IMG/VR virus record: IMGVR_UViG_3300048065_000294
Span: 1 to 27,030 of that record
Source of the DNA: a virus
DNA: 27,030 nt
Direction: 5' to 3' (one strand)
Shown: in pieces, positions 3,954 through 13,747 of the stretch
Layout of the letters: each line of letters begins with the position of its first letter
Numbering within the stretch: position 1 is the stretch's first letter
Translations under genes and position numbers: made by a program
The notes under the pieces: generated by a model
Seen by the model: the letters and a program-made list of their open reading frames with translations, nothing else
Database searches by the model: none
What the model was told of the DNA's origin: nothing

Positions 3954-6350
3954 TCACTGCCCTCGGTTCCTTGCTAAACTGGCCTGCGTATTGATACGGA
4001 AGATATTCACATCATTCCGGTCATTGGCAATACCCTGCTGCAAACGCATGCGCTCAAGGGCAAGGTCTGCGGCCTGCTGCATCTTGGCCTGATCCATCTG
4101 GAAGTCCATCGTATCGTTCTGCATCTTACGCTGAATTTCCATCTGGTCGTTCTGCAACTCCTGCTGACGGATAGATACAAGCGGGTCAGGCTGCTGTGGT
4201 GGGATCAAAAGCGGTGCCAACTGCTCAAGTGTCTCAGAAATCTGCTGCGCGACCATAGCCTCAACTACGTTCGGATCAACCTGCGGAATTGGCTCACCCG
4301 CCGCCTGTGCCTGCTCAATGGCCTGACGGAATACTTCCTGCACAATATCACGAGCAAACATAGCAACGTGATCCTGAACGTGCGCCTGTAGCGCTAGAAA
4401 GGCCTGTGGGTTCGCTTGAATAGCCGGAGACTGAATCATAGCTGCATGCACCCGAATGTGCGCCCTGTGGTCTTGTTGAGCGAATACCTGCGGCATACCA
4501 CCCTTCAGGGCAGTCGAGTTCTCTGTGGCCGGATCCATTGGCTGTGGTGGCTGTGGTGCTGGCAGAATCGCATCGATGTTCTTAATATCCAGCGCATCGT
4601 ACATACGGCGATAAGCCTCGTACATATTATGCATCTGCGGTGCAGCCTGTGCCATCTGCAACTGTGTCTGCGCCAACGACATACGCTGTGCCATCGAGAA
4701 GATGTTCGGATCAGATACAGGTAAGATGTCAATCCGCCCATCAAAGTCCTGCTGCATAATCTCTGGCGGAATGTTCTGCCCAACAAAATACGGATACGGC
4801 ACTGGATTATCAGCAAAGATCTCAGCCAGCATGCGGAACTCAGCTTTCTGTGAGTAATGCAAGCGCTTATGAATGCTAGAGATAACCTTCGAACCCTGCT
4901 CGATCAACGCAACAGTCGTACCCACAGGGGCATTGCTGTTCACATCGCTGATCTTCGCATCCGAGACTTGTGCAAACCTACGACCAGAATCAACCACAAC
5001 ACCCAGAAGCTGGGCCAAAGTACCTGACGGCTCTTTGTAAGGCAGTGGGATAATCGAGTTCTTCAGATCACCACCCGGCGCATCAATGTCACGGAACTCA
5101 CCCGGCGACAACGGCTCATCGTCATTACGAATACGCACACCACGAGCTTTAAATCCAGCCGGAAGGTTCGACAGAGTCCCCGCATCAATAAGCTGGCGAA
5201 GAATCGAGGTAGCCGCACGAGACAATCCACCGATTGTATGCAGCAAACCAAAGCCGTAGAAACCAAAACCCGGCAAAAACTTGTAGTGTGTGAAATACTG
5301 ACGCCGCCGTCTTAGCGGATCCGCCTCACGATAGCTTCTAACAATGCTAAGAACTTCTCCAGAGGCTTCATCAAGAGTAACAATATAAGGCAACTTAATG
5401 CCCGTATCTCCCCCATCAGGTCCCACGTCTTCAAAACCTTCCAGATCGAGATCAACGTGGATTTCATATATTGTATAAACATCGTCACCGTAACTAGGAC
5501 GAATGCCTGTAAGCTCGTTAGTGCGCCCTTGAATAGTTCCTTCATCTTCGGACTCATCGCTTGCAGATAATTCAACATCTCTATACACCCCTGCTACTTG
5601 CATCTTGCGGATTTCATTCTCCGTCATCCGCACAATATGTGTTACACGCTCCGCTGTCCGTAGATCAGAAGCTGTGTAAGGCACAATCAGATCTTCAGCC
5701 GGAACAAACTTGGATACAGCCCGCTGCCTAGTCGGGTCAAAATAAATCTTCTTAAACGTAGAACCAGTAATCGGTAGATAATACAACATCTGATCCGTGT
5801 CTGGATCAAACTCTTCCATCACCTCAGTGATCTGGTAATTCATAAAGTCTTCTACACGCTGGGCCTGATCTTCCGTCTCTTTGGTCGGCGCACCTAAGAT
5901 CTGGGTCTTTACAGGACCACCAGATGGTAACATCTCTTTATAAGCCTGCGCTTGAAACTGAGTAACGGCCTCACTCAACAATGGATGATGAACGCCGCTG
6001 GCACCCAAGAACGGAGCAGAACGCTCCTCGTAATTGATACCAAGTAACCCCAAACCCTTTGCAATGGCCTCTTCCCAATCAGAACGCGACTCCATGTCAT
6101 CCTGAATCTTGTCACGAAGATCCGAGGACAACGAACCAAGAACCGAAGGATCAATGATCTCGGCTAAGTTTGCATTGTGGTCGTACTCTTCAGCAACAAC
6201 CTCAAGCGTCTGCTCTTCACCAGCAAGCTCAATGCCCGGTGGTAGTTCGTCCTCGAAACCCGGTACTTCGACCTGCAACTCTTCAGGCATAAGATCAGCC
6301 GGGCCACCCGGACCCATAGCCATGTCAACCATCTGTGGAGGTAGTGCCAT
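3954..6350 (-). CDS. portal protein (podovirus-type, long)
   Basis: At 798 residues this is long for a portal, as in several marine podoviruses. After an acidic N-terminus (1-60) comes the clip and stem region with the pattern LGLLGINYEERSAPF and a conserved-looking segment at 113-143 (LGASGVHHPLLSEAVTQFQAQAYKEMLP). The middle is alpha/beta, and the C-terminal third is Gln-, Met- and Pro-rich and helical (about 560-798), probably the barrel that projects into the capsid. Portals form the dodecameric ring through which the terminase pumps DNA. The gene lies two genes after the large terminase, as expected. AAAGGAAC precedes the ATG. Identification rests on size, position and remembered similarity to marine phage portals. 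Confidence 0.85.
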   Translation of the reverse strand: MALPPQMVDMAMGPGGPADLMPEELQVEVPGFEDELPPGIELAGEEQTLEVVAEEYDHNANLAEIIDPSVLGSLSSDLRDKIQDDMESRSDWEEAIAKGLGLLGINYEERSAPFLGASGVHHPLLSEAVTQFQAQAYKEMLPSGGPVKTQILGAPTKETEDQAQRVEDFMNYQITEVMEEFDPDTDQMLYYLPITGSTFKKIYFDPTRQRAVSKFVPAEDLIVPYTASDLRTAERVTHIVRMTENEIRKMQVAGVYRDVELSASDESEDEGTIQGRTNELTGIRPSYGDDVYTIYEIHVDLDLEGFEDVGPDGGDTGIKLPYIVTLDEASGEVLSIVRSYREADPLRRRRQYFTHYKFLPGFGFYGFGLLHTIGGLSRAATSILRQLIDAGTLSNLPAGFKARGVRIRNDDEPLSPGEFRDIDAPGGDLKNSIIPLPYKEPSGTLAQLLGVVVDSGRRFAQVSDAKISDVNSNAPVGTTVALIEQGSKVISSIHKRLHYSQKAEFRMLAEIFADNPVPYPYFVGQNIPPEIMQQDFDGRIDILPVSDPNIFSMAQRMSLAQTQLQMAQAAPQMHNMYEAYRRMYDALDIKNIDAILPAPQPPQPMDPATENSTALKGGMPQVFAQQDHRAHIRVHAAMIQSPAIQANPQAFLALQAHVQDHVAMFARDIVQEVFRQAIEQAQAAGEPIPQVDPNVVEAMVAQQISETLEQLAPLLIPPQQPDPLVSIRQQELQNDQMEIQRKMQNDTMDFQMDQAKMQQAADLALERMRLQQGIANDRNDVNIFRINTQASLARNRGQ

Positions 6351-12452: not shown

Positions 12453-12463
12453 AGATCCAAGGG

Positions 12464-12583
12464 CGCAGGTCGCAGGTCGCAGACTCACGCAATAAAGCCC
12501 GCAGCCCACCCAGCCAAGGCGCAGGCGCGCAAGGCGCAGCACAATCCCTTCATCGATCCCACATACAAGGACGCAGGTCGCAG
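12464..12583. repeat. CGCAGGTCGCAG direct repeats downstream of GP88
   Basis: The 12-mer CGCAGGTCGCAG occurs at 12464-12475, where it continues as a third CGCAG unit to 12482, and at 12572-12583. A further copy at 11644-11655 lies upstream of the GP88 promoter, so copies flank the GP88 unit. Confidence 0.6.
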
Positions 12584-12904
12584 ATCCTCGATCCTCGAAC
12601 CTTGGATTTCCAGCACTTTACCGCCGTCAAATAAAAATACATCGCCGGTCAAGGGGTCGTGGAGCAAGAAAAAAGAAACGCCGTTGCAACGGTTATGCGC
12701 CAAATGCCACGCGATTTGAGACTTATTAACCGAAACTCGGTTACTTTTTATTATTTTCAACTCCAGCCAGACAGGCACACCATCCAAGCACAGATAAACG
12801 TCAGGCATGCCCTCGCCAGCGCGGTTCTCAATCCTCTGGTGATGTGTCCTTTTCGGTAAACTCTGCTTCAATAACGTCCACAGGCTTTTCTCTGTCTTTG
12901 GCAT
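12485..12904 (-). CDS. VRR-NUC/Holliday-resolvase-like nuclease
   Basis: The product has 139 residues from the ATG at 12904, which has AAGGG upstream. It shows the PD-(D/E)XK arrangement of VRR-NUC nucleases: E26, then GEGMPD35 on the first strand, then VWLE48-L-K50 on the next, and a later helix with SQIAWHLAH that often carries the supporting Gln. Such enzymes cut branched or structured DNA; in phages they resolve replication intermediates before packaging. It overlaps the terminase small-subunit candidate by 77 bases. The last 35 residues are low-complexity and coded by the CGCAGGTCGCAG repeat region, so the gene may have gained a new 3' end there. Confidence 0.8.
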   Translation of the reverse strand: MPKTEKSLWTLLKQSLPKRTHHQRIENRAGEGMPDVYLCLDGVPVWLELKIIKSNRVSVNKSQIAWHLAHNRCNGVSFFLLHDPLTGDVFLFDGGKVLEIQGSRIEDLRPASLYVGSMKGLCCALRACALAGWAAGFIA

Positions 12905-13394
12905 CTTCAACCCTTTTCATATCATCAAAGGCAGCCGGATACTGCTTGCGGATAGCAGCCAGCCTAGCAGTGATTTCATCGCGGCTTAGTTTATCTAGCT
13001 GGTGAATGTGGTTGGCCTCGCGGCGGTCGATTGTCAGGCCACCAAGGGCAGACCGGATCTTTTCCGCATTGATGGCAGCAGAAAACTGACCAGCCTCCTC
13101 CGCGCTGCGTGACAGTTCATCCAGCCGCTTTAGCTGACCAGTCAGGCTGATCGAGTACCGGCGTTCTCTGGCCTCGCGTAGTTCTTTTATCAGGGCAACA
13201 CAGTCAGGGAAATCACGACCGTTCAGCAGCTTCGAAGCTTGGACGTTCGCGCTGTCTTCCGAATAGCCCGCCTTCCTCGCACACTCCGCATTAGAATAGA
13301 CGCCCTCGACAATATATTTGGCAAACTCACGCTGCCTGTTAGTCAGTCCAGCAGGCCTGCCGCCCTTGCTTTTTACAGTGTTTTCTTTTTCCAT
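12828..13394 (-). CDS. terS: terminase small subunit (probable)
   Basis: The 188-residue protein has a helix-turn-helix N-terminus (LTNRQREFAKYIVEGVYSNAECARKAGYSEDSANVQASKLL, residues 17-57, quoted here only by its two halves NAECARKAGYS and ANVQASKLL). A central helical region for oligomerisation (62-118) and an acidic C-terminal tail follow. This is the usual outline of Terminase_2-type small subunits, which bind the packaging site and hand DNA to the large subunit. It is paired with a nuclease rather than with the large terminase. The ATG is preceded by GGTGAG, and that site lies inside one arm of a 17-bp inverted repeat. A general DNA-binding regulator is the alternative. Confidence 0.75.
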   Translation of the reverse strand: MEKENTVKSKGGRPAGLTNRQREFAKYIVEGVYSNAECARKAGYSEDSANVQASKLLNGRDFPDCVALIKELREARERRYSISLTGQLKRLDELSRSAEEAGQFSAAINAEKIRSALGGLTIDRREANHIHQLDKLSRDEITARLAAIRKQYPAAFDDMKRVEDAKDREKPVDVIEAEFTEKDTSPED

Positions 13395-13398
13395 AAGA

Positions 13399-13603
13399 GT
13401 TTTCTCACCATTTTTTAGTAACAGGAAAATCCAAAATAAAACCTCGAAAGGGCTGATAGAAAGTAATTTGTAACGTTTAGCTGTTACAAATCAACATCAC
13501 CGTTACAGCTACAACCCTTACTCACCTTGACTTGTAACACTTGTAACGCTGTAACAGCAAATTTCAAAAAAAAATAAATATTTTTCAAAAATGGTGAGAA
13601 AAC
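13399..13603. repeat. 17-bp inverted repeat with a 171-base interior
   Basis: GTTTTCTCACCATTTTT at 13399-13415 is the exact reverse complement of 13587-13603. The left arm covers the ribosome binding site of the minus-strand small-terminase gene. Confidence 0.85.
13466..13555. repeat. TGTAAC repeat cluster (iteron-like)
   Basis: TGTAAC lies at 13469, 13533, 13542 and 13550, and its complement GTTACA at 13483 and 13502. ATTTGTAAC (13466-13474) forms an inverted pair with 13483-13491 around 8 bases, and ACTTGTAAC is repeated in tandem at 13530 and 13539. Confidence 0.8.
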
Positions 13604-13747
13604 ACTATAGGCCAAATTAGTCTCAAAAACTGCACTTTTTAATCCGAGTCTTTTTTTATCTTTTTTTATACAAAAACATTTGACCATCAATTAAATCCGT
13701 GCAACAGTCCCTTATAAGATAACTGACTATAGCATAGGAGCAAAGAT

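Follow-up and report, generated by a model that had tools for sequence, protein, structure and literature searches.

Organization of the site

The window analysed here, a 27,030-nucleotide stretch of viral DNA (IMG/VR record IMGVR_UViG_3300048065_000294), carries a site of about 220 bp (13396–13613) in the divergent gap that has the small terminase gene (terS) on one side and the early genes, from 13748 onward, on the other (Table 1). From arm to arm, such a site comprises an A/T tract, three 9-bp units, a spacer and then two or three inverted units (V copies). In the window there are three tandem words, two inverted words and one extra word in tandem orientation, and there is no recognisable counterpart of the middle V copy that most relatives have. 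Clustered short direct and inverted repeats and an A/T-rich stretch adjoining them, both features of iteron-type origins, are present.

A preliminary description had drawn attention to six TGTAAC/GTTACA words here, and all six positions are exact: TGTAAC starts at 13469, 13533, 13542 and 13550 and GTTACA at 13483 and 13502, so that the words are packed into 13469–13555. The 9-bp inverted pair (13466–13474 and 13483–13491), the tandem ACTTGTAAC (13530–13547) and the A/T-rich tract directly beside the words, which it also reported, are present as well. The repeat unit is 9 bp long and extends beyond the hexamer recognised there, and the whole cluster is enclosed by inverted 20-nt arms (13396–13415 and 13587–13606) that are 95% complementary. 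The words also stand out from background: six fall in one 90-bp stretch of the window, whereas the most crowded 90 bp of 2000 windows simulated with a first-order Markov model held no more than three, and none of the window's other hexamers occurs five or more times in such a stretch. Counted across the full window, the word shows no enrichment, with 14 sites against 10.6 expected, but six of these sites make up the cluster.

Table 1. Features in and around the site (positions in the window; a point marks a feature given no strand).
Feature	Position	Strand	Evidence or comparison
terS, small terminase, flanking gene	12828..13394	-	phrog_51, E 1e-15; PF03592, E 2e-7
Left (terS-side) inverted arm, AGAGTTTTCTCACCATTTTT	13396..13415	.	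Counterparts in relatives and satellite-like elements
Sixth TGTAAC copy, tandem-unit orientation	13469..13474	+	Also in L203, with letters changed
Inverted word (V copy)	13483..13488	-	Word positions
Inverted word (V copy)	13502..13507	-	Word positions; comparison with relatives
Spacer between the two arrays	13508..13531	.	Identical in L203
Tandem array of three 9-bp units, minus-strand reading CTGTTACAG, GCGTTACAA, GTGTTACAA	13532..13557	-	Same array in 98 non-redundant phage loci
A/T-rich tract adjoining the tandem array	13556..13590	.	Position conserved in relatives
Right (early-gene-side) inverted arm, AAAAATGGTGAGAAAACACTATAGGCC	13587..13613	.	Inverted-repeat and motif comparison
First gene of the divergent early cluster, 55 aa	13748..13915	+	Conserved in relatives

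The repeat words change in concert among related phages

Relatives were collected with a TerS search, which gave 80 viral contigs, and with searches for the gp34-like protein and the SNF2 helicase, which gave more. In front of terS they share one layout, in which an A/T tract, three tandem 9-bp units, a spacer of about 25–35 bp and inverted units all lie inside the arms. A site detector that requires tandem 9-bp units and inverted copies called sites in 129 of the 251 sequences; removal of duplicates left 98 phage loci, among which 80 sequences are distinct. Since repeats are required, these counts measure recurrence and not the frequency with which the site is absent. Called units follow the consensus RYGNNNYRA, in which the invariant G at position 3 is partly the detector's own definition, and positions 4–6 vary, with 17 four-letter cores represented. 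The repeats, which the preliminary description had proposed to look for at the same place in related phages, are conserved there in layout but not in the literal word TGTAAC.

Within a phage the variable letters agree. Inverted copies show 0.49 mismatches to the tandem words of their own phage, compared with 1.38±0.05 when V regions are permuted; kinship among the phages inflates such a test, so that comparisons of close pairs are the weightier evidence. Between the window and L203, its closest relative, all six words differ, while the flanks are near-identical and the spacer and the word pattern are the same. The core letters change together within a phage while the layout persists. No conserved second word cluster was found elsewhere in the phage genomes, and a DNA-level search of annotated phages gave no match to the site.

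The conserved phage proteins tested do not track the words

We screened 18 window proteins across the phage loci for covariation with the words, and none qualified as their reader. The TerS, phrog_2165, SNF2 helicase, gp33-like, gp34-like, primase, TerL and portal proteins and a polymerase piece are each identical in some pair of phages with different words. The clearest case is TerS, which is identical in G001, G002 and L041, whose units are CGTTACAAA, GTGTCTCAA and GCGTAACAA respectively, and likewise in the different-word pairs L074/L079 and L059/L062. TerS therefore does not read the variable letters, and we rejected it as their reader. Nor is the site tied to terS, since in L304 a distance of 4.3 kb separates the two: this gene has moved next to terL (4348–6304 relative to the array), and the site still adjoins a phrog_2165-type gene. 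UvrD differs at only three of 503 residues in a different-word pair, and neither a sliding-window test nor these three changes gave support for it as the reader. The genes that differ in eight close pairs belong to no common family and include no obvious DNA-binding protein, and a search for a guide RNA for the words found no long shared words. Some different-word pairs show recombination next to the site (L132/L144 versus G009/L137), and single different-word contigs may be assembly chimeras. As judged from these sequence comparisons, the conserved proteins tested do not read the variable letters in any simple way; no cognate initiator that tracks the repeats was found among them, and small mosaic genes or unsampled regions may encode one.

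Two differences were seen elsewhere in these genomes. At the late-gene end, a late virion protein of about 1230–1440 aa is 47% identical between L132 and G009, and its neighbours are 96–100% identical. The large internal virion protein, which is hypervariable, was considered as a reader and rejected, as it matches a virion structural family. The near-identical G001 and G002 are distinguished chiefly by putative tail genes and by the words, so that host range may change along with the words.

Copies of the site in SAR116-order chromosomes

A pattern scan of bacterial genomes identified a SAR116 contig (Puniceispirillum, L297/L362) with a full site, preceded in order by a tRNA-Ser gene, a tyrosine integrase and an AlpA-like ORF. 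A search with the integrase gave matches in 50 of 136 SAR116-order genomes, and 15 elements, including L362, were examined with extended flanks. In 13 of the 15 a tRNA-Ser gene lies just upstream of int, and the remaining two begin at a contig edge. The integrase carries PF00589/PF22022/PF13356 domains, and the AlpA-like protein scores 20.7 bits to PF05930, just below the cut-off of 21; with this sub-cut-off score, the elements have the combination of integrase and AlpA-type regulator that is characteristic of phage satellites of the PICI/PICMI type.

Eight of the 15 elements have a site that is 77–94% identical to phage sites, with word sets that are also known from phages. The site, 208–309 bp in either orientation, is the sole DNA that these eight share with the phage contigs. 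Arrays are diverged in L403–L407, and L408 and L409 have no clear array. The match between element L397 and phage L054 (94% identity) reaches into the start of terS, which suggests capture from a phage, and the differences between element L400 and phage L195 (93% identity) are concentrated in the words. In L398, L401 and L402 an apparently chromosomal gene comes next, about 0.1–0.3 kb past the site, which would make these elements about 2 kb long; this size is an estimate, because a search for an attR copy did not find one. No replication gene of their own, such as a primase, was seen in the ORFs between int and the next gene of the short elements. Several of the matching integrases contain stop codons, which indicates decaying copies. 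Beyond the SAR116 order, a class-wide AlpA search uncovered no elements with arrays, and an integrase search of IMG/VR gave two distant matches, neither with the site. In the literature covered we found no report of SAR116 satellites, though one may exist outside it. The elements look like very small phage satellites that borrow a cis-acting site of their helper.

Longer int-alpA elements (L403, L404, L406 and L409) carry variable cargo past the site, in which ORFs resembling DNA cytosine methyltransferases were recognised by eye and are possible defence genes. Apart from the site, the window has G-rich word-like repeats (CGCAGGTCGCAG, GATCCTCGATCCTCGAACCTTGG) at 12460–12640, after the phrog_2165 gene, and similar repeats (CCAAGGGCCAAGGGCC, GGTTCAAGGTCCGCGG) occur just past the site in the satellite-like L362, L401 and L407; they are perhaps a shared host signature.

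Function of the site

Since the site is the only phage DNA that the satellite-like elements keep, it would have to recruit a helper function, whether replication, packaging or both. The iteron-like arrays at an A/T tract, their independence from terS and the indifference to orientation together favour an origin, and with moderate confidence we take the site to be an iteron-like replication origin that satellites mimic; a double role as origin and packaging start is possible. A factor would bind the 9-bp units cooperatively, after which the A/T tract would melt and the phage replisome would load. Satellites of the SAR116 order, whose members would be the hosts of these phages, would have captured the site from arm to arm and so be replicated by the helper phage, which perhaps also packages them as concatemers. 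Cumulative GC skew in four large contigs reaches its minimum 0.1–3.7 kb from the site, which is weak support for an origin because transcription diverges at the site and confounds the skew, and the maximum, at about -14.4 kb, does not lie opposite. In unrelated elements, similar GTAACA arrays are located about 75 bp downstream of primase-type genes and are suggestive with respect to an origin.

GTAACA-type tandem arrays with inverted copies were also seen by replication-type genes of unrelated bacteria and phages (L302, L296 from Alistipes, L311, L321, L334, L356 and L329).

The preliminary description had offered an iteron origin and a packaging site side by side. An iteron-like cis-acting site fits the six units in both orientations, the A/T tract, the layout in about 100 relatives and the presence of the site alone in satellite-like elements; packaging through TerS reading the words does not agree with the several phage pairs in which TerS is identical and the words differ, nor with the distance from terS in L304. 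The site could nevertheless be a packaging start of the pac or cos kind, with the two arrays flanking a cleavage region and satellites carrying it in order to be packaged. In the pac sites of P1 and SPP1, short repeats in two groups flank a spacer close to the gene for the small terminase, and the site described here is like them in its two repeat groups and spacer and, in most phages, in its place beside terS. Packaging would account for the satellite-like elements, which lack terS and as satellites would need packaging, as well as an origin would. Unlike those pac sites, however, this one changes its repeats while TerS stays constant and can be remote from terS, and near-complete contigs run through it, so that we regard a packaging start as rather unlikely. 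The position in a divergent intergenic region, with arms that read outward on both sides, would also suit a bidirectional control region, the arms and words serving as operators or promoter elements for the early and terS transcripts; but in the satellite-like elements the site is retained whole, in one orientation or the other, and adjoins neither gene set, and no regulator was found that tracks the words, which makes such a region improbable. The arms were rejected as promoters for a phage RNA polymerase, as their motif was found in the phage genomes at this site only.

In the satellite-like elements the site comes after int and alpA, the integrase includes a domain that binds arm DNA (PF13356), and one unrelated array (L326) adjoins an integrase, all of which would be expected if the words were arm-type sites of a phage integrase (attP). 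The phages, however, share the site but not int or alpA, and no integrase was seen in the site-carrying phage contigs; attP is accordingly very improbable. On a separate 119-kb contig (L363, G027:C1 42000–58000), three copies of GCGTAACAA lie beside a 567-aa integrase-like ORF, and that array is possibly a set of attP arm sites rather than an origin. We give hardly any credence to the idea that the words are not read at all and change in concert as a mutational by-product (repeat homogenisation) or as part of a folded RNA or DNA hairpin. Words do change without a change in any conserved protein, but copy number and spacing hold, and the spacings of the two arrays (9/9 versus 8/11) make simple conversion between them unlikely. 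Inverted copies are often non-complementary to their partner unit, for which reason a simple hairpin between tandem and inverted units was rejected, and the site has no match in Rfam.

If the site is an iteron-like origin, it has partial counterparts among known systems. The iteron origins of P4 and the SaPIs have short repeats in both orientations and an A/T stretch, as this site does; unlike in those elements, no initiator of their type was found in the window, whose primase is of the AEP type (PF22548) and does not track the words.

The origin of the PLE satellites combines RepA iterons with an origin-directed nuclease, Odn, and its iterons are three semi-palindromes of about 30 bp that covary with the RepA_N domain (PMC8263062). 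There, as probably here, the origin repeats vary among elements and are swapped as a module, and the conflict is centred on the origin (PMC8263062); in contrast, the present units are 9 bp long and occur in phage and parasite both, and no covarying protein was found. By analogy, the concerted change of the words suggests conflict with satellites. It is conceivable, if unlikely, that the words act as a barcode in this conflict, a word cassette of about 100 bp being swapped to shed satellites while the conserved proteins stay unchanged, with a reader outside them (a host factor, an unsampled variable gene or an RNA). The nearest described satellites are the PICMIs of Vibrionaceae, small marine islands with integrase and AlpA that parasitise virulent phages; PICMI115, of 6.1 kb, lies beside fis and has its own primase, which is active in replication (PMC10803314). 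The SAR116 elements are likewise small marine islands with an integrase and an AlpA-like protein, but they adjoin tRNA-Ser, apparently extend for about 2 kb in some cases, showed no primase, and carry a copy of the phage site.

If these interpretations are correct, the cis-acting site of an abundant and mostly uncultured group of marine phages has been narrowed to about 220 bp, and this by nature, because the satellite-like elements carry only that piece. The candidate SAR116 satellites, made up of an integrase, an AlpA-like protein and a helper site only, would be smaller than any described satellite that we found. Finally, recognition words that are replaced in concert while conserved phage proteins remain fixed would allow the co-evolution of a site and its reader under parasitism to be tested directly.
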